Shown piece by piece: positions 2,072-50,935 of a stretch of 64,000 nt of DNA. The translations under genes were made by a program, and so were the position numbers. The DNA comes from Flavihumibacter cheonanensis (GTDB taxonomy: Bacteria > Bacteroidota > Bacteroidia > Chitinophagales > Chitinophagaceae). Location: assembly GCF_022352215.1 (NCBI RefSeq), contig NZ_JAKRWF010000001.1:1984001-2048000 (forward strand), given 5' to 3'. Within the stretch, counting starts at the first letter, position 1; each line of letters begins with the position of its first letter. A model generated the notes under the pieces. It did not search any database and had not been told where the DNA came from. It saw only the letters and a program-made list of their open reading frames with translations.

Positions 2072-2190
2072 GAAGTGAGATGGTATGGAAGAGGAGACAG
2101 AGGAGACCGGAGACAAAGGAGGCATGGAAGAGGAAACAAAGGAGACAGAGGAGACAGAGGAGACAGAGGAGGCAAAGGAGACGAACCCTG
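2072..2190 (+). repeat. GA-rich gene-end repeat, copy 2 (between mqnB and mqnD)
   Basis: Directly after the mqnB stop the plus strand is almost pure purine. It has a 9-bp tandem unit close to GAGACAGAG from about 2142 to 2180 and the words GGCATGGAAGA (2121) and AGGAAACAAAGGAGA (about 2130). The first word recurs after spt (19565), the second on the minus strand of the 19950-20062 copy. No plausible coding sequence crosses it. It probably lies within the mqnB-mqnD transcript. Confidence 0.75.
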
Positions 2191-5492: not shown

Positions 5493-7742
5493 CTATTTGA
5501 ATTTTTTCTTTAATTCATTCAGTTTCGCCTGGAAATCATTCACCGGCTCAGTCCCCTTCTTCCTTTCCTCCATCCTCCTTTCTCCCATCTTCCTTTCTCC
5601 CGTCTTCCTTTCTCCCGTCTTCATCGACAAGCCAATTCGTTTCCTGGCAAGATCCACTTCCGTTACTGTTACCTTCACTTTCTGCTGCAATTTCACCACT
5701 TCAGCAGGATCACTCACATAGGTATCACTGAGTTGTGAAATATGAATCAAGCCATCCTGTTTCACACCAATATCTACAAACACTCCAAACTTGGTAATAT
5801 TGGTAATAATGCCAGGCACCACCATGCCCACTTTTACATCTTCCATTGTTTTGATACTGTCATCAAAACGAAACTCTTCAATTGGTGCGCGGGGGTCACG
5901 TCCCGGCTTTTCCAATTCCTTCAGAATATCTTCAATTGTGAATTCACCAATGGTTTCTGAAATGTATTTTTTCCTGTTGATTTGCCGGCGTAGCTCTGCT
6001 TTTTCTATCAGGTCTTTTACCTTACAATTCAGGTCCTTTGCCATGGTTTCAACAACGGGATAGGTTTCCGGATGTACGGCACTGTTATCAAGCGGATTAA
6101 CGGCTTCGCGTATACGCAAAAATCCGGCGCATTGCTCAAAGGTTTTGGGTCCCATCAGGCTAACCTTTTTCAATTCTTCCCTTGATTTAAACGGACCATT
6201 TTTTTGGCGGTACTCCACAATATTTTTTGCAAGTGTGGCACTTAATCCAGATACATACATCAGGAGATGTTTGCTGGCTGTGTTCAAATCTACACCCACA
6301 TGGTTCACGCAGCTTTCAACTACGCGATCCAGGCTTTCTTTCAAACGCGATTGGTTTACATCATGCTGGTATTGTCCCACACCAATAGATTTGGCATCAA
6401 TTTTCACTAACTCACTCAGCGGATCCAGCAAACGTCTTCCAATACTTACAGCGCCCCTAACAGTAACATCAAAATCAGGAAATTCTTCACGAGCCACTTC
6501 TGATGCAGAATAAATCGATGCACCACTTTCATTCACCTGAAATACACTCACGGGTTTACCAAAATCAATTGACCTGGCCAGCGTTTCTGTTTCTCTTCCG
6601 GCAGTTCCATTTCCAACACCTATGGCTTCAATATCATATTGCTTCACCAATTGTTTCAGGGTTTCCACAGATTTCTGCCAGTCATTCTGTGGTGGATGCG
6701 GATAGATGGTGCTGGTATGAATCAGATTACCCTGTTCATCCAGGCATACCAGTTTACAACCGGTACGAAAACCGGGATCCAATGCCAACACTCTTTTCGA
6801 CCCTAAGGGAGAAGCCAGTAATAACTGCCGCAGGTTTTCTGCAAACACCTGGATGGCTTCTTCATCTGCCGCATTCTTGGTAGTTAACCGGAATTCATTT
6901 TCAATGGAGGGCTTTAACAAGCGATCAAAACTATCCGCAATCGCGTCTCTCATTTCCCCTGCTGCTTCACTGTTGTTTTTCACAAACAATCTTTCCAGTT
7001 CAGGTATTGCAATTGCTTTTTCAACATTGATATCCATTAACAGGTAGCCTTCCTTTTCCCCTCTGCGAATTGCCAGTATCCGGTGGGAAGGACATTTGGA
7101 AAGCGGTTCAGAGAACTCAAAATAATCGCGGTATTTCTGCGCATCCGCTTCTTCTTTTTTGGAACTCAGCACGCGTGATACCAAAATGGAAGAGGATTCA
7201 AACAAAGACCGAATGGCGGTTCTTGCCTGCTGATCTTCAGCCACACGTTCCGCGATGATATCCCGGGCACCCTGTAATGCATCTTTAGCAGATTTCACCT
7301 CTTCTTTTACATAGGCCTGAGCAGCTGCTTCCGGACTGCCAGGCTGCTGTTCCCAAATCCAGTCTGCCAGGGGAGCCAGTCCTTTTTCAATAGCCTGGCT
7401 GGCTCTTGTTTTCCTTTTGGGTTTATAGGGCAGGTAAATATCTTCCAGCTCAGTAGCATTGATACAGGCTATAATTTTTTCTGATAATTCAGGTGAGAGT
7501 TTACCTTGAGATTCAATTGTTTTCAGCACAGTTTCCTTTCTCTTCTCCAGGTCTTTGAAATAGGCGATCTCTTCAACGATGGAAGTGATAACCACCTCAT
7601 CCAGGTTACCGGTTGCTTCTTTACGGTAACGAGCCATAAAAGGAACAGTGGCCCCTTCTTCCTGCAGTCCATAAACATTCACTACCTGCTTTACAGAAAG
7701 CGATAATTTCTGCGCGATTACACTAACATATTTTGGATCCAT
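5493..7742 (-). CDS. tex: Tex family S1 RNA-binding transcription accessory protein
   Basis: With the ATG at 7742 the product is 749 residues, close to the family norm. It has the Tex N-terminal helical domain (VPFMARYRKEATGNLDE), a YqgF/RNase H-like core (RVLALDPGFRTGCK), helix-hairpin-helix repeats (DLNTASKHLL, GPKTFEQCAGFLRI) and an S1 domain from about residue 633 to 707 (GIITNITKFGVFVDIG). Tex proteins bind nucleic acid and affect transcription and RNA turnover; the exact role here is unknown. A start 22 codons upstream at 7808 would overlap the hydrolase gene and lies upstream of the exact -7 box at 7762, so 7742 is preferred. The C-terminal tail holds pentapeptide KTGER-type repeats encoded by 15-bp DNA repeats. 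Confidence 0.96.
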   Translation of the reverse strand: MDPKYVSVIAQKLSLSVKQVVNVYGLQEEGATVPFMARYRKEATGNLDEVVITSIVEEIAYFKDLEKRKETVLKTIESQGKLSPELSEKIIACINATELEDIYLPYKPKRKTRASQAIEKGLAPLADWIWEQQPGSPEAAAQAYVKEEVKSAKDALQGARDIIAERVAEDQQARTAIRSLFESSSILVSRVLSSKKEEADAQKYRDYFEFSEPLSKCPSHRILAIRRGEKEGYLLMDINVEKAIAIPELERLFVKNNSEAAGEMRDAIADSFDRLLKPSIENEFRLTTKNAADEEAIQVFAENLRQLLLASPLGSKRVLALDPGFRTGCKLVCLDEQGNLIHTSTIYPHPPQNDWQKSVETLKQLVKQYDIEAIGVGNGTAGRETETLARSIDFGKPVSVFQVNESGASIYSASEVAREEFPDFDVTVRGAVSIGRRLLDPLSELVKIDAKSIGVGQYQHDVNQSRLKESLDRVVESCVNHVGVDLNTASKHLLMYVSGLSATLAKNIVEYRQKNGPFKSREELKKVSLMGPKTFEQCAGFLRIREAVNPLDNSAVHPETYPVVETMAKDLNCKVKDLIEKAELRRQINRKKYISETIGEFTIEDILKELEKPGRDPRAPIEEFRFDDSIKTMEDVKVGMVVPGIITNITKFGVFVDIGVKQDGLIHISQLSDTYVSDPAEVVKLQQKVKVTVTEVDLARKRIGLSMKTGERKTGERKMGERRMEERKKGTEPVNDFQAKLNELKKKFK
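5561..5620 (-). repeat. Four 15-bp tandem repeats inside the tex C-terminal tail
   Basis: Four 15-bp units (5606-5620, 5591-5605, 5576-5590, 5561-5575) encode KTGER, KTGER, KMGER and RMEER just after the S1 domain. The minus-strand word GATGGAGGAAAGGAAGA in the last unit is shared, 17 of 17 bases, with the intergenic GA-rich repeat after spt at 19574-19590. Confidence 0.8.
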
Positions 7743-19546: not shown

Positions 19547-19625
19547 GGAGGTGAGACGTGAGACGGCATGGAAGATGGAGGAAAGGAAGAGGGAGAAAAG
19601 GAGAAAAGGAGGAAAGGAAGATGTG
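19547..19625 (+). repeat. GA-rich gene-end repeat, copy 3 (after spt)
   Basis: Directly after the spt TAG the plus strand reads GGAGGTGAGACGTGAGACGG and then runs of GGAAAGGAAGA and GGAGAAAA. The junction resembles the one after the pterin synthase; GGCATGGAAGA is shared with the mqnB copy and a 17-bp word with the tex repeat. Confidence 0.75.
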
Positions 19626-19680: not shown

Positions 19681-19949
19681 GTGTTGTGGCTGAGTCAAAT
19701 TGCAGTCTCTACTTGCAATAGAAGCGGCGGTTTCAGGCCTGGACTATATTCTACTGGCTGCTTCTGAAGGTGATTGTAAATCGGGGGGACTGAGCCTAAA
19801 AAACTAAAAAAAACCTTGATTGTCAGATGAAGTCCTAACTATTACATATAAGCTGATTCAGTCCATTTTTAAGCGTTGAGTGATTATCCTCAATTTTCGA
19901 TACTGGTATGCTTTGAACATCAAAAATCAGTACCCTAAAGATTACCTCT

Positions 19950-20062
19950 TTCACTTTTCCTTTTATCCCTTCTCCTTTGTTTCCTGTTCCCTCTGTCTCA
20001 CTTCTCACGTTTGACGTTTCATCCCTCTTTCACCTTTCACTTTTCACCTTTCACTTCTTCTT
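19950..20062 (-). repeat. GA-rich gene-end repeat, copy 4 (composite)
   Basis: The plus strand is CT-rich, so the purine strand is minus. Read on minus it starts AAGAAGTGAAAGGTGAAAAG, goes on to ACGTCAAACGTGAGAAGTGAG and then AGGAAACAAAGGAGA. It therefore joins the GTGAAAAG words of copy 5 (49476-49532), the ACGTCA/GTGAGA words of copies 1 and 3, and a 15-bp word of copy 2. It follows the T run of the hairpin at 20063-20092. Confidence 0.75.
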
Positions 20063-46188: not shown

Positions 46189-48384
46189 TTGAGCACACCG
46201 GTATTTCTTGTAACACCTCCTTTTACACAGTTGAACACGCCCTATCCGGCCACTGCTTACCTGAAAGGATTCCTGAACACCAAAGCAATCGCATCCGAAC
46301 AGGCCGACCTTGGTATTGATCTGACACTGGCTTTGTTCAGTAAACAAGGATTGGAAGAGATTTTTAATACGGTGGAGGCTGGTTCCATTGAAAGTCCCAA
46401 CTCCAAACGCATCTACCGGTTGCGCAACCAGTACATAGAAACCATCGATGAAGTCATCCGCTTTTTACAGGGAAATGAACCTACCCTGGCGCATCGTATT
46501 GCGGGAAGAAATTTTCTGCCTGAAGCAAGCCGATTTGCTCAATTGGATGACCTGGTCTGGGCTTTCGGTAAAATGGGAACCCAGGACAAAGCCAAACACC
46601 TGGCCACCTTATACCTGGAGGATCTCTCTGATTTCATAAAGGAAAATGTGGATGAACATTTTGGCTTCAGCCGCTACGCAGAAAAGCTGGCACGTTCTGC
46701 GAATCGTTTTGATGAATTGTATGCAGCATTGCAGCAAGCACCCGGTTTTATTGATCAGAAAATGACGGCCCTGCTGGAAAAATATATACAGCGATATCAA
46801 CCTTCGTTGCTTGCATTTTCAGTTCCCTTTCCCGGCAACCTGTTTGCCGCATTGCGCTGCGGACAATATATAAAGCAACATCATCCTGCTATAAAAATTG
46901 CGATGGGTGGAGGATTTGCCAATACTGAACTGCGCTCCTTAAAAGATACCCGCATCTTTGAATTCCTTGATTTCATCACGCTGGATGATGGAGAAGCGCC
47001 CATTGAACAATTACTGGCCTATGTAAGAAAAGAGATTGATGCAGCTGATTTGAAAAGAACCTTTCTACTGGAAAAAGGGTCACTTACCTATATTGAAAAC
47101 AAAGGCTGCCGCGATTATAAACAGGCAGAGTTGGGTACCCCGGATTATACTGGTCTTCGACTGGATGAATACATACAGGCTATTGAGATCATCAATCCCA
47201 TGCATTCCTTATGGAGTGATGGCCGATGGAACAAACTAACGATGGCGCATGGTTGCTATTGGGGTAAATGTACCTTCTGTGATATCAGCCTGGATTATAT
47301 TCGGTTATACGAACCTGTTGCAGCATCCCTGATTGTTGACCGGATGGAAACCATCATTCAACAATTCGGTAACAATGGTTTTCATTTCGTGGATGAAGCA
47401 GCCCCTCCTGCCCTGATGCGCGCGGTAGCATTGGAGATTCTTAAGCGTAAACTCATAGTGAGTTGGTGGACCAATATTCGTTTTGAAAAAAGTTTCACAC
47501 GGGATCTCTGTTTGTTGTTGAAAGCATCCGGTTGTATTGGCGTATCAGGCGGACTGGAAGTTGCATCGGACCGTTTGCTGGCATTGATTGATAAAGGCAT
47601 CACAGTAGCACAGGTAGCGCGGGTGAATAAACATTTTACAGAGGCAGGCATCATGGTACATGCATACCTCATGTATGGGTTTCCAACCCAAACGGATCAG
47701 GAAACAATTGACTCCCTGGAGATGGTTCGACAGTTATTTGCAGCGGGGGTATTACAGAGTGCCTTCTGGCATCAGTTTACAATGACGGCTCATAGTCCGG
47801 TTGGACTGAAACCTGAAAAATTCAAGGTGAATGCGCTTCGTCCGGCTGAAATTTTATTTGCCGACAATGATGTAGAACACGAAGACCCAACCGGTGCGGA
47901 TCATGCGGCCTATGGATATGGGTTGAAAAAATCCTTACTGAATTTCATGCATGGAGCCTGCCTGGATTTCCCTTTGCACAAATGGTTTGATTTTAAAGTA
48001 CCGAAGACAAGCATTGCTCCGGATTATATTGAACGAATTTTGCAGGAAGAAGATTTTTCTGCGACCAAACCCACAACCAAAATAGTATTCATAGGCAACC
48101 TTCCGACCGCTGAGATTGTGGTGAAATCAAAAAAAGGACAGCAGTGGGAATCCATGGAGTTGTCATTTGAAACCCTGCAATCCGACCTAACCATTCGCCT
48201 CTCAAAAGAAGAGGGAGTATGGTTGGTATCCATACTCCCTCAACTGCAATTAGATGCTCCCAAAACGATGACCCGGCAGGAATTGAAAACTTCATATGAA
48301 GCTGCGGGCTTACCAGATTTCGAACTTTTCTGGGATAATAAGCCGATCAGCAACCTGCACAAGGCGGGGCTGCTGCAGTTATAA
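46189..48384 (+). CDS. B12-binding-type radical SAM protein with CX4CX2C cluster motif
   Basis: The protein has an N-terminal B12-binding-like region (LLAFSVPFPGNLFAALRCGQ, IAMGGGFANTEL, FITLDDGEAPIEQLL) and a radical SAM domain whose cluster motif is HGCYWGKCTFCD. The spacing is CX4CX2C, not the canonical CX3CX2C. FHFVDEAAPP, GCIGVSGGLEVASDRLL and YLMYGFPTQTDQE follow. The start is unsure: a TTG at 46129 overlaps the upstream gene, while TTG at 46189 follows an exact -7 box (TAAATTTG, 46163-46170) and places the conserved VFLVTPPFTQL near the start; the latter is used here. The substrate is unknown. Confidence 0.82.
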   Translation: MSTPVFLVTPPFTQLNTPYPATAYLKGFLNTKAIASEQADLGIDLTLALFSKQGLEEIFNTVEAGSIESPNSKRIYRLRNQYIETIDEVIRFLQGNEPTLAHRIAGRNFLPEASRFAQLDDLVWAFGKMGTQDKAKHLATLYLEDLSDFIKENVDEHFGFSRYAEKLARSANRFDELYAALQQAPGFIDQKMTALLEKYIQRYQPSLLAFSVPFPGNLFAALRCGQYIKQHHPAIKIAMGGGFANTELRSLKDTRIFEFLDFITLDDGEAPIEQLLAYVRKEIDAADLKRTFLLEKGSLTYIENKGCRDYKQAELGTPDYTGLRLDEYIQAIEIINPMHSLWSDGRWNKLTMAHGCYWGKCTFCDISLDYIRLYEPVAASLIVDRMETIIQQFGNNGFHFVDEAAPPALMRAVALEILKRKLIVSWWTNIRFEKSFTRDLCLLLKASGCIGVSGGLEVASDRLLALIDKGITVAQVARVNKHFTEAGIMVHAYLMYGFPTQTDQETIDSLEMVRQLFAAGVLQSAFWHQFTMTAHSPVGLKPEKFKVNALRPAEILFADNDVEHEDPTGADHAAYGYGLKKSLLNFMHGACLDFPLHKWFDFKVPKTSIAPDYIERILQEEDFSATKPTTKIVFIGNLPTAEIVVKSKKGQQWESMELSFETLQSDLTIRLSKEEGVWLVSILPQLQLDAPKTMTRQELKTSYEAAGLPDFELFWDNKPISNLHKAGLLQL

Positions 48385-48388
48385 GTTA

Positions 48389-49144
48389 TTAATCACGACT
48401 GCTAAGTTTACTCAATAAACGCAGCATTTCAATATAGAGCCAGATGATGGTAACCATCAATCCGAAGGCACCAAACCATTCCATGTATTTTGGAGCGCCC
48501 ATACTAACCCCGGTTTCAATCATATCAAAATCGAGGATGAGGTTGAGTGCTGCGATAGCAACCACAAATAGTGAGAAACCTATACCCAGCAGGCTACCTT
48601 CATGCAGAAATGCCAGCTCCACACCAAACAATCGTAAAACCAGCGCGATGAGATAAAACACAGCGATACCAGCAGTTGCAGTGAATACTATAGATTTAAA
48701 TCGTTGGGTGGCTTTAATAACCCCAGTGCGGTATAAAACATACATGGCGATAACAGTTCCGAAAGTCAGTGCTACTGCCTGCATAACAAGGCCGGGTGCT
48801 ACTTCTGAGAATGCATCAGCATATACGGCAGAAATTCCGCCCACAAAAACACCTTCCACCAGACCATAGGCAGGCACGGTGTACTGTCCGTATTGAGGAC
48901 GAAAACTGGTTACCAATGCGAGAATCAACCCCACAATAGCTGAACCTATTACCCAGGGCCATACATTAACCCCTTCGAAATGTGCTTTCCAGGTGAGCAG
49001 GGCCGAAGCCATCAGGAGAAAGAAGAGAAAAATAAACTTGTTCATCGTGCCTCTTTCGGTCATGGTTTCTGTACCCGCACCGGTTAAAGAAGCTTCAAAA
49101 CGTTTTTCAGAAAGAGCCGGGTTTCCGGACTTAAATATTGCCAT
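48389..49144 (-). CDS. Bax inhibitor-1/YccA family membrane protein
   Basis: This 251-residue protein has about seven membrane helices and family segments such as GLVEGVFVGGISAVY, FGTVIAMYVLYRTGV and IGFSLFVVAIAALNLILDFDMIE near the C-terminus. It is related to E. coli YccA and YbhL and to the eukaryotic BI-1 calcium-leak family; the bacterial function is not settled. The gene end is 4 bp from the convergent radical SAM gene. Its promoter is directly followed upstream by the phased 21-bp repeat array. Confidence 0.92.
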   Translation of the reverse strand: MAIFKSGNPALSEKRFEASLTGAGTETMTERGTMNKFIFLFFLLMASALLTWKAHFEGVNVWPWVIGSAIVGLILALVTSFRPQYGQYTVPAYGLVEGVFVGGISAVYADAFSEVAPGLVMQAVALTFGTVIAMYVLYRTGVIKATQRFKSIVFTATAGIAVFYLIALVLRLFGVELAFLHEGSLLGIGFSLFVVAIAALNLILDFDMIETGVSMGAPKYMEWFGAFGLMVTIIWLYIEMLRLLSKLSSRD

Positions 49145-49163
49145 AGGTCTGAGTTTAGGGGAT

Positions 49164-49192
49164 CAAAGTAGTAAATACTGGCTGAAAATCAA
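49164..49192 (-). promoter_or_regulatory. Promoter of the BI-1/YccA gene
   Basis: On the minus strand TTG (49190-49192) is 18 bp from CTACTTTG (49164-49171), a relative of TAnnTTTG with the core TACTTTG. It lies 19 bp upstream of the ATG at 49144, and the repeat array begins 12 bp beyond the -33 box. Confidence 0.5.
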
Positions 49193-49204
49193 AACATTCC
49201 GGGC

Positions 49205-49320
49205 ATGAGCCAATTCAGCAAAATCATGAGCCAATTATAGGGTTTTATGAGCCAATTATGGGCAAAAATGAGCCTATTCGAGGGTAAAATGAGCCAATTC
49301 CCAGGAGGATTGAGCCAATA
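49205..49320. repeat. Six-copy 21-bp phased direct repeat with core ATGAGCCAATT
   Basis: Copies start at 49205, 49226, 49247, 49268, 49289 and 49310, each exactly 21 bp after the last. The 11-bp core is ATGAGCCAATT in four copies; one has CCTATT and the last has TTGAGCCAATA. The 10 bp between cores vary. Twenty-one base pairs is two turns of B-DNA, so the cores face the same side. The array lies just upstream of the BI-1/YccA promoter. On the minus strand the frame would encode NWL repeats but has no start codon. Confidence 0.9.
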
Positions 49321-49475
49321 GGAAAAAACTTAATTCATTGATTTTCTGATCTTTAAATGGACTTTTATACAAATTACAACCTCTGATCCTCCCTAATCCT
49401 TCGTCATCCTACGTCTTCCTACGGCATTGAACTAGCCCAGCTTCGACCCACTACCACCCATGATCCGATAATGAA

Positions 49476-49532
49476 CCTTTCACCTTTACCCTTTCACAAT
49501 TTTCACTTTTCACCTTTCACTTTTCACTTCTT
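49476..49532 (-). repeat. GA-rich gene-end repeat, copy 5 (at the VOC gene end)
   Basis: Read on minus, the VOC gene ends GGAAGAAGTGAAAAGTGA, where the last TGA is the stop codon, and the repeat GTGAAAAGTGAAAGG goes on into the intergenic DNA. The repeat thus includes the last codons and the stop of the gene. The words match copy 4 at 19950-20062. Confidence 0.75.
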
Positions 49533-49918
49533 CCATACTCAATCAAATCCCACAGGTTACCATACAAATCTTCGAAAACGGCTACAGTCCCGTAGGCTTC
49601 ATCACTCGGCTGCCGAACTATCTTAATCTCATTGTCAAGCAGGTTCTGGTAATCTCTTTTGAAATTATCGGTGCTCAAAAAAAGAAATACACGTCCGCCT
49701 GTCTGATTTCCGATCCTGTTTTTTTGTTCTTCTGTTGCCGCTTTTACTAACAATAAAGAGCATTCGGTTGCTCCCTGGGGTCTCACCAAAACCCATCGCT
49801 TGGTGTCGGAAAGAATAGTATCTTCTACTAAAGTAAAATGCAGTTTTTGTGTGTAAAACGCAATTGCTTTGTCATAATCATCTACAACAATTGCAATATG
49901 CGCCAGGTGCTGATTCAT
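49517..49918 (-). CDS. VOC (glyoxalase/dioxygenase) family protein
   Basis: This 133-residue protein has two beta-alpha-beta-beta-beta modules of the VOC fold: HLAHIAIVVDDYDKAIAFYT at the start and a metal Glu in AVFEDLYGNLWDLIEYG near the end. The length is that of single-domain glyoxalase-like enzymes. The substrate is unknown. The last codons lie within a GA-rich repeat, so the C-terminal SEK may be repeat-derived. An exact -7 box sits 21 bp upstream. Confidence 0.88.
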   Translation of the reverse strand: MNQHLAHIAIVVDDYDKAIAFYTQKLHFTLVEDTILSDTKRWVLVRPQGATECSLLLVKAATEEQKNRIGNQTGGRVFLFLSTDNFKRDYQNLLDNEIKIVRQPSDEAYGTVAVFEDLYGNLWDLIEYGRSEK

Positions 49919-49938
49919 AAAGTATAGAATTACCTAAT

Positions 49939-49946
49939 CAAAAATA
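49939..49946 (-). promoter_or_regulatory. -7 promoter box for the VOC gene
   Basis: The minus strand reads TATTTTTG, an exact match, 20 bp upstream of the ATG at 49918. Confidence 0.5.
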
Positions 49947-49997
49947 GATCTGGCAATGCTTAGAAAAACTATCCGCGGGTAATTATTTATTGACTTA

Positions 49998-50309
49998 TTA
50001 TTCCCCTACTGAATTCTGCAGGGCTTTCTGCTGGCGGAGTAATTCTTTCTCCTGGCGTTTTTTTTCTTTCTCCTGCCGCTTCAACTGCTTCTTGTGCTGT
50101 TTTTGTTGTTTATTCAATTTCTTCTGCGACTTCTTCAGCCTCTTTTGTTGTTTCTTCGCTTTTTTCGCCTGCTTCTGCGTTTTCCTATGCTGCTTAGCCA
50201 TCTCTCTTTGTCGTTTGATAGCTGCTTTATCCGGCGCTTGTGCCTGCAAAGTTCCTTCTACTGTAAAAAACAGGGTCAATAACAGTAATATCTTTTTCAC
50301 ATGATTCAT
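49998..50309 (-). CDS. Small secreted Lys/Gln-rich coiled-coil protein
   Basis: This 103-residue protein has a signal peptide (MNHVKKILLLLTLFFTVEGT, cut near LQAQA). The mature 79 residues are almost only K, Q, R, E and a few A and L (for example KAKKQQKRLKKSQKK), strongly basic and predicted to form a long helix or coiled coil. No family is recognised. Low-complexity composition raises the chance of an unusual role such as binding nucleic acid or cell-wall polymers outside the cytoplasm. It lies 80 bp upstream of the VOC gene. Confidence 0.65.
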   Translation of the reverse strand: MNHVKKILLLLTLFFTVEGTLQAQAPDKAAIKRQREMAKQHRKTQKQAKKAKKQQKRLKKSQKKLNKQQKQHKKQLKRQEKEKKRQEKELLRQQKALQNSVGE

Positions 50310-50335
50310 ACCTGAGATTTAAATGATTCAAACTA

Positions 50336-50935
50336 TCAGTTCCTCTGCCGGATAAAAAAGAGACGCTTCAATCTCTTTTTGTAGTTGTTGCTCACAGGAT
50401 ATTTTCGATTCGGGGTAATATTATTAAATATCAGCGCCACCAACAAAAGTACGAGCGCGCCGCTTAATACAGGGAACAGGATGTAATAATATCCTAATAA
50501 CTTGATTTTTTCCGACCCGATTACCGCTAATAATGCAGTTGCACCTCCAGGAGGGTGCAGGGTCTTGGTGAACTGCATCGCAATGATAGAAAGTGATACC
50601 GCCAGGGGTGCAGTCAGCCAAATGATTTCAGGAAGCAGCGACTGCACACTAACTCCCACAAATGCAGAAACAAGATGACCTCCTATTAAATTACGGGGTT
50701 GTGCCAGCGGACTTTGAATCAGGCCAAAAACCAGCACACTGGATGCCCCGAAGGATCCAATTAAAAATAGACTATCAGAATCTTTAAGTAAAAAACTTTG
50801 CCAGAAAGCAATCAGACCAATTCCGATGAAAGAGCCCAGGAAGGACCAGAACTTCTCTTCCCGGTTTACTAAGGTTTCTCTGTAATAAATGTATCTGGTG
50901 TAGCGTAGTGTTCTTTTGACTCTCTTTTTCAGCAT
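50336..50935 (-). CDS. HPP family integral membrane protein
   Basis: This 199-residue protein has four or five membrane helices and the diagnostic HPPGGATAL loop (TLHPPGGATALLAV near residue 126). The second helix begins FLIGSFGASSVLVFG and PLAQPRNLIGGHLVSA follows. HPP proteins are implicated in nitrite transport in plants and cyanobacteria; the bacterial role is often unknown. It starts 16 bp after the cold-shock gene end. Confidence 0.9.
   Translation of the reverse strand: MLKKRVKRTLRYTRYIYYRETLVNREEKFWSFLGSFIGIGLIAFWQSFLLKDSDSLFLIGSFGASSVLVFGLIQSPLAQPRNLIGGHLVSAFVGVSVQSLLPEIIWLTAPLAVSLSIIAMQFTKTLHPPGGATALLAVIGSEKIKLLGYYYILFPVLSGALVLLLVALIFNNITPNRKYPVSNNYKKRLKRLFFIRQRN

Follow-up and report, generated by a model that had tools for sequence, protein, structure and literature searches.

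The 64,000-nucleotide stretch of the Flavihumibacter cheonanensis (Chitinophagaceae) genome analysed here (the window; contig NZ_JAKRWF010000001.1) contains an array of six ATGAGCCAATT-type units, spaced 21 base pairs (bp) apart, next to a gene for a Bax inhibitor 1 (BI-1/YccA)-like protein. This array is one half of a dispersed element that carries two phased arrays. Both halves of the window copy are homologous to the flanks of a gene elsewhere in the same genome, the core words of such arrays change more slowly than the spacers between them, and arrays of about 21-bp period are associated with a winged-helix protein domain. We consider it probable that a small winged-helix protein encoded elsewhere in the genome binds the units of the array on one face of the DNA, and that the window holds a gene-less copy of the two-array element.

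An array of six phased units

The six units start at 49205, 49226, 49247, 49268, 49289 and 49310, each step being exactly 21 bp. Positions and steps agree with an earlier note on this DNA, but its count of five identical cores with a variant at 49310 does not hold: four of the six units are exact copies of ATGAGCCAATT (49205, 49226, 49247 and 49289), that at 49268 (ATGAGCCTATT) has one mismatch and that at 49310 (TTGAGCCAATA) has two. The lone word is not rare in the window: allowing two mismatches, 25 matches were counted against 33 expected. The longest chain of ATGAGCCAATT-type words, allowing all steps from 12 to 39, is six in the window against a maximum of two on the plus strand of 100 first-order Markov resamples of the window; since none of these resamples matched it, the array was not made by chance. 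Identity within the array is 0.61 at lag 21 and 0.27-0.31 at lags 10, 11, 20 and 22.

The word is not palindromic and is repeated in direct orientation throughout the array. Consistent with the earlier note, the open reading frame (ORF) list of the window contains no closed ORF of at least 60 amino acids across the array; one plus-strand ORF (48993-49208) stops four bases inside the first unit. An Rfam scan of window positions 48300-50400 gave no matches at E values up to 1. CRISPR repeats are about 23-47 bp long and separated by unique spacers; the unit here is a 10-11-bp core on a 21-bp step, a period too short for CRISPR, as the note had also argued (cas genes were not searched for).

The array belongs to a dispersed two-array element

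A second array, which the earlier note overlooked, starts 65 bp past the first and consists of (A/T)TCCTWCGTC-like units in 10-bp steps (ATCCTCCCTA, ATCCTTCGTC, ATCCTACGTC and TTCCTACGGC at 49386, 49396, 49406 and 49416). Beyond it lie CCCA words at 49436, 49447 and 49457 (array 3; steps of 11 and 10 bp), and aligned copies of the element elsewhere have TGGG words on the opposite strand at this place. Arrays 2 and 3 were both found again in other copies. In the genome as a whole (G000, 4.84 Mb; other G numbers denote the genomes compared with it and L numbers denote loci), the pattern TGAGCC-15N-TGAGCC occurs 27 times against once for a reversed control. For the 10-bp array, a corresponding pattern gave 16 occurrences (control 1), distributed over six places. 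All six places adjoin the six TGAGCCAATT arrays, with order and orientation constant. As the 10-bp arrays are always paired with TGAGCCAATT arrays in G000, both arrays are best treated together, as one element present in six copies.

One of these six copies (L029, on C186) encloses a gene for a protein of 192 amino acids, located between the arrays on the opposite strand. The window copy lacks this gene and keeps the order and orientation of both arrays. Each of its halves is similar to one flank of the gene, in like order and orientation (identities of 87% across 67 bp and 79% across 77 bp), the former being positions 49384-49450 (array 2 with neighbouring bases) aligned to the 5' flank of the gene. 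Read on the gene strand, the full element comprises CTGGG words (about 11 bp), ACGTAGGATG-like ACGWAGGATG words (10 bp), the gene for about 190 amino acids and AATTGGCTCA words (21 bp) that start on the stop codon or close to it. Of 20 full-length genes, five use the first three letters of the first unit as their stop codon. Genes of this kind adjoining arrays are present in other species.

Gene-less copies can be aligned across both arrays and, at most loci, across the linker as well, the linker of the window locus aligning poorly with other copies. Seven gene-less two-array loci from G000 and G001 were aligned (11 rows), and these are multiple short non-coding copies, as expected of miniature inverted-repeat transposable elements (MITEs). 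Other copies (L021, L022 and L027) use the word TGAGCCGATT. In copies of the TGAGCCGATT type (L021, L027 and L070; in G000, C110:182836-183077 and C164:387044-387377) the inverted word stands at each end, one of the ends having a spacing of 8-9 bp, in the manner of terminal inverted repeats. The window also contains a decayed element of the same kind at about 19687-19972, in which the array is gone and only the edges are left; the orthologous place in G001 (L058) holds an intact two-array element.

Gene-less copies are located at differing places among species. Genomes with array pairs have them at 1 to 10 places each, and no pair was found in 3 of the 13 near-complete Flavihumibacter genomes. 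The genus contains 18 full-length genes in about 13 neighbourhoods, a count based on 12 clusters assigned by script, one of which (31-40% matches) was split, with the gene G000a joined to G001a/G010a via a common acetyltransferase gene. In G009, a stretch containing the element and bounded by low-complexity edges lies between a VOC gene and rnc; it occurs in none of the ten other genomes in which both flanks could be placed (G001 and G011, with one flank placed, were left out).

Array words change more slowly than spacers

Six orthologous array loci of G000 were aligned with those of G001, and five of these also with those of G010. Relative to G000, the fraction of changed positions was 54/579 in cores, 170/512 in spacers and 1032/3901 in flanks (core versus spacer, Fisher p 7e-23), so that between species about 9% of core and 33% of spacer positions diverge, the spacers changing 3.6 times faster; all p values in this comparison serve as a guide, as sites within one locus are not independent events. 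Since the units had been picked in G000, with a possible bias towards cores, G001 and G010 were compared with each other at identical columns of five loci, and this control again gave fewer changes in cores (23/239) than in spacers (61/209; p 1e-7). The difference is maintained in gene-less arrays alone (cores 53/489, spacers 152/433) and in the window locus alone (cores 15/109, spacers 32/89; p 4e-4). The slower change of the cores indicates that the array words are under selection. The number of units varies between species by whole units, which implies that duplication or loss of units does happen. The earlier note had favoured a same-face array with conserved cores over recent tandem duplication, and had named equal conservation of spacers and cores as evidence to the contrary; the spacers are far more changed across the six loci, in support of the former reading, and protein binding to the cores would be consistent with this pattern.

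The enclosed gene encodes a winged-helix protein of a family without a model

The 192-amino-acid product combines a novel N-terminal domain with a C-terminal winged helix of the Fic type. The best structural match of the winged helix is 8cil (the structure of CbFic2), and the winged helices of MarR, ArsR, Fur and TFIIE rank close behind those of Fic proteins; AspA, a winged-helix protein that binds plasmid centromeres, is also among the matches, as are many other winged helices. Pfam and NCBIfam both lack a model specific to the family. The Fic domain itself (PF02661) was not matched in six family proteins. Neither a transposase, recombinase or nuclease nor, in Pfam or NCBIfam, a Y1/HUH or LytTR match was obtained for the linked gene (unlinked RAYT genes were not searched for). 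A model of the N-terminal domain (mean predicted local distance difference test score 71) had no PDB match with an E value under 1.7 and no viral one under 0.5; with an alignment of six sequences behind it, this evidence is weak.

A phage origin was considered and rejected, as a tblastn search with the L029 protein against a phage collection gave no match. Five viral contigs match via the C-terminal part, in proteins of 373-401 amino acids. Among plasmids, 31 records match the L029 protein, none over 80% of the query, and the 20 matches listed concern the winged-helix part of proteins annotated as Fic, DUF4172 or ATP-binding.

Presence of the gene follows presence of the arrays: full-length genes occur in 10 of 10 genomes with array pairs and are absent from five of five without (p 3e-4, uncorrected for relatedness). 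With two incomplete pair-less genomes left out, the counts are 10/10 and 0/3 (p 0.0035). The sole array pairs of G006 and G014 are those that adjoin the gene. A second full-length family gene is present in G000 (L155, C175:262230-262784), with the variant word AATTGAATCA downstream and the same word inverted upstream. Its word TGATTC was considered as a dispersed array and rejected: 29 pairs were found in 15 genomes against three for the reversed control, and only one place has two successive pairs.

The 21-bp array is associated with the winged helix

To compare arrays with protein architecture, we scored the flanks of 46 genes that open with the N-terminal domain (loci L139-L193) against 200 shuffles each, at p <= 0.01; genes in which the match starts after model position 12, or with a flank under 200 bp, were left out. 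Of the 19 winged-helix genes, 17 have a downstream array of about 21 bp (19-22), compared with 3 of the 27 that lack this domain (p 9e-8). Nine of the 19 had been found via their arrays, which biases this count; amongst the other ten, found by protein search, eight have the array (p 1.6e-4 against 3/27). The upstream 10-11-bp array is spread over the three architectures (10/19, 13/22 and 4/5), and arrays of this period occur downstream in 3 of the 46 genes. These counts imply that the 21-bp array accompanies the winged helix, whereas the array of 10-11 bp accompanies either the N-terminal domain or the promoter. The Chitinophagaceae proteins of this set that have the N-terminal domain without a winged helix are about 100 or about 190 amino acids long, and 17 of the 27 have an upstream phased array of 10-11 bp, with words such as ACGGAGGATGA and GATAGGGTTTT.

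The word also precedes Fic genes outside the genus

A scan of the genome collection for two TGAGCCAATT words 21 bp apart returned 42 stretches, 23 of them from Flavihumibacter or from G010, a metagenome-assembled genome, and 19 from elsewhere. In 3 of the 19, TGAGCCAATT words lie directly upstream of Fic/DOC genes that match PF02661 (L125 and L098, Chitinophagales; L122, Saprospiraceae), with steps of 10, 11 and 21 bp and in constant orientation to the gene. All three Fic genes end in a winged helix of the same kind, bearing the same KGAG motif. Thirteen further stretches appear by eye to be repeats in coding sequence and L119 lies within an ORF of 229 amino acids; at L136 and L097 the arrays are intergenic, and the stretch examined carries no Fic gene. 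Pairs at L025 and G003:C22:1986989 were counted as due to chance. A Fic gene of F. fluminis, close to a TGAGCCGATT array, is broken into two frames (L065:410-1512).

A Fic protein with a C-terminal helix-turn-helix represses its own promoter via palindromes (PMC9755527). Among Fic proteins with a C-terminal winged helix, CccR represses its own promoter, in which its DNA sites are located, and CbFic2 binds DNA (PMC9755527, PMC10628234). Together with the TGAGCCAATT words upstream of Fic genes, this suggests that winged helices of this type read TGAGCCAATT, and that in Flavihumibacter such a winged helix became joined to another domain.

Neighbouring genes and the BI-1 promoter

The features of the window locus are listed in Table 1.

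Table 1. Coordinates of the element and its neighbours in the window
Feature	Position	Strand	Description
Bax inhibitor 1-like gene (PF12811), 251 amino acids	48389..49144	-	Promoter-like sequence between gene and array
Array 1	49205..49320	+	Six ATGAGCCAATT-type units, 21-bp period
Linker	49321..49385	.	A+T-rich, between arrays 1 and 2; place of the 192-amino-acid gene in the gene-bearing copy
Array 2	49386..49425	+	Four units (ATCCTCCCTA/ATCCTTCGTC/ATCCTACGTC/TTCCTACGGC), 10-bp steps
Array 3	49434..49463	+	Three CCCA words; also overlooked in the earlier note
Glyoxalase-superfamily gene (PF00903), 133 amino acids	49517..49918	-	3' end faces the element

The earlier note had placed the array upstream of the BI-1 promoter and proposed a search for the word and its period upstream of BI-1 orthologues. 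An alignable BI-1 gene is present in eight further genomes of the genus. Two of these (G001 and G010) have the array, and no array was found within 420 bp upstream of BI-1 in G002, G004, G006, G007, G008 and G009; G008 has a single lone GGCTCA there. In G008 and G009 BI-1 is preceded by a short gene (identified by eye) that resembles the gene at window positions 49998-50309, with a further 59-bp match in G009, so that the element and the glyoxalase gene together represent the extra sequence in the window. Both in G009 (L093:2936-3741) and in the window (about 49176-49990), the extra stretch contains the element and, behind it, a VOC/glyoxalase-like gene oriented towards it, which may reflect cargo or coincidence. 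Convergent genes flank six of the eight gene-less array loci read in G000, and tandem genes flank the other two; divergent genes flank none (genes judged from long ORFs, not curated).

Two other repeat families were noticed. Repeats of 7 bp, (GTGAAAG)n or (CTTTCAC)n, occur at window positions 49475-49527 and 20027-20056 and at many loci, several directly behind a stop codon, and account for many matches in the element-homology search. Purine-rich, intergenic, dispersed repeats resembling GGAGACAAAGGAGG (window positions 2085-2182, 5554-5622 and 19570-19623, and many loci) flank several elements.

Discussion

Our preferred interpretation of the array, as binding sites for the winged-helix protein, includes a proposed mechanism. 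The winged helix would read TGAGCCAATT and the N-terminal domain, or a partner, would read the 10-bp array; the protein may then align along one face of the DNA at every second (or every) helical turn and repress or shield its own locus, the gene-less copies providing further docking sites. Several observations weigh against this interpretation. The link between protein and word is one of association and is in part a given, as the array lies in the 3' flank of the gene itself, and the genes tested for it include orthologues and are not fully independent. Two of the 19 winged-helix genes (L148 and L170) have no detected array of about 21 bp, and the upstream 10-11-bp array is significant in just 27 of the 46 genes, all architectures taken together. 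The array of the window is eroding in relatives, G001 being one unit short and G010 retaining two intact words. Foldseek returned no matches to the protein model at E <= 0.001. For a Fic protein whose site has been measured, that site is a palindrome bound by a dimer and not an array of direct repeats (PMC9755527), and CbFic2 bound random DNA (PMC10628234).

The earlier note regarded the array as an operator that tunes the BI-1/YccA promoter through a bound regulator. The array does lie close upstream of promoter-like sequence, and cores change more slowly than spacers in two sister species, at this locus too. Against this, six of the eight relatives with an alignable BI-1 have no array, the -7-like TTTACTATTTTG being still present in G008 and G009, and elements of the same kind are found at seven other gene-less places in G000, six of them between convergent genes. 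The absence from relatives and the convergent placement make a role specific to this promoter unlikely, the array being a copy of a dispersed repeat; an effect on BI-1 is possible. A regulator of another class that binds direct repeats of about 21 bp is a very unlikely candidate. The sites of LytTR response regulators are direct repeats of this length, with which the period agrees, but the linked gene has no LytTR match and TGAGCCAATT words also precede winged-helix Fic genes of other families. Least probable of all is a functionless tandem duplication of a 21-bp unit: whole-unit differences between species would fit it, but not the faster divergence of the spacers or the recurrence of one word in arrays at unrelated places.

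A selfish mobile element, in which the gene with its two arrays is autonomous, the gene-less copies are non-autonomous (MITE- or REPIN-like) and the arrays are end sites for some route of transposition, is a possibility that we rate as less likely than not, and one compatible with the binding-site interpretation. It would account for the 66-79% identity of the L058 element to nine other array loci in three genomes (over 291-629 bp), the many neighbourhoods of the full-length genes, the VOC-rnc stretch confined to G009 and the inverted TGAGCCGATT-type word at the far end of L021, L027 and L070. It is at odds with the linked gene, which matches no transposase, recombinase or nuclease, and with the slower change of cores in gene-less copies, which suggests function and not relics. 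Moreover, no terminal inverted repeat was seen in the AATT type, and no clean target duplication was found at L058, L062 or L093, where the flanks are low-complexity repeats with no clean empty site; in G000, L058 corresponds to a decayed remnant and L062 to different content, hence neither yields target duplications. Chromosome-organising or centromere-like sites, on which the protein would polymerise between convergent genes to bridge or insulate regions, appear improbable. One- and two-turn phasing, conserved cores and mostly convergent placement in G000 would be in keeping with such sites, as would AspA among the structural matches, where it stands with many other winged helices; the 1 to 10 places per genome with array pairs and the near-complete genomes that have no pair argue against them.

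The element resembles several known systems in part. REPIN/RAYT systems likewise comprise one gene-bearing copy and gene-less dispersed copies with common flanks, but they encode a transposase of the HUH/Y1 type, to which the linked gene gave no match, and have palindromic REP units in place of direct-repeat arrays. In ParR/parC and other plasmid centromere arrays, which are associated with a partition NTPase gene, the gene for a small DNA-binding protein adjoins an array phased at one turn, whereas the element described here is present in several copies on chromosomal contigs. The likeness to CccR and CbFic2 lies in the same kind of winged helix; the differences are that here it is fused to a new N-terminal domain, with no Fic domain in the protein, and that the proposed sites are 21-bp direct repeats and not palindromes. 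BrickBuilt, a MITE of Porphyromonas gingivalis with IS5-like terminal repeats (PMC4596501), shares the phylum Bacteroidota, the intergenic and dispersed location, tandem repeats of about two helical turns and conserved flanking segments. Its internal direct repeats are 23 nucleotides long against a period of 21 here, and the present element differs in its variable spacers and kept cores, its second, 10-bp array and a gene-bearing copy that encodes a putative DNA-binding protein. Winged helices of the BldC and RdfS type (PMC11963761) correspond to the mode of binding proposed here, with monomers arranged head-to-tail one DNA turn apart or on a 22-bp direct-repeat target; they belong to another protein family, and polymerisation is only proposed in our case. 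The TAACTGA heptamer repeats of Beggiatoaceae, Cyanobacteria and some Bacteroidetes (PMC4679880) are also short intergenic direct repeats, some adjoining start or stop codons, but consist of another word, and the excerpt cited proposes candidate binding proteins and describes no repeat-flanked gene family. No earlier account of the element or its protein was recognised by title or abstract opening in the literature searched.

A bolder and rather doubtful proposal is that these elements form a new minimal class in the Chitinophagaceae, in which a single modular array-binding protein, with its N-terminal domain assigned to the upstream 10/11-bp array and its winged helix to the downstream 21-bp array, would spread and maintain its own arrays without a recognisable transposase, and selection would keep the gene-less copies as genome-wide docking sites. 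The present locus also cautions that an array adjoining a promoter need not regulate that gene. For a protein family that lacks a Pfam or NCBIfam model, the arrays provide a testable DNA target word, and arrays and protein domains go together. If the element is mobile, it would represent a repeat system without a recognisable transposase; if it is not, the arrays would constitute a genome-wide set of same-face docking sites on Bacteroidota chromosomes.
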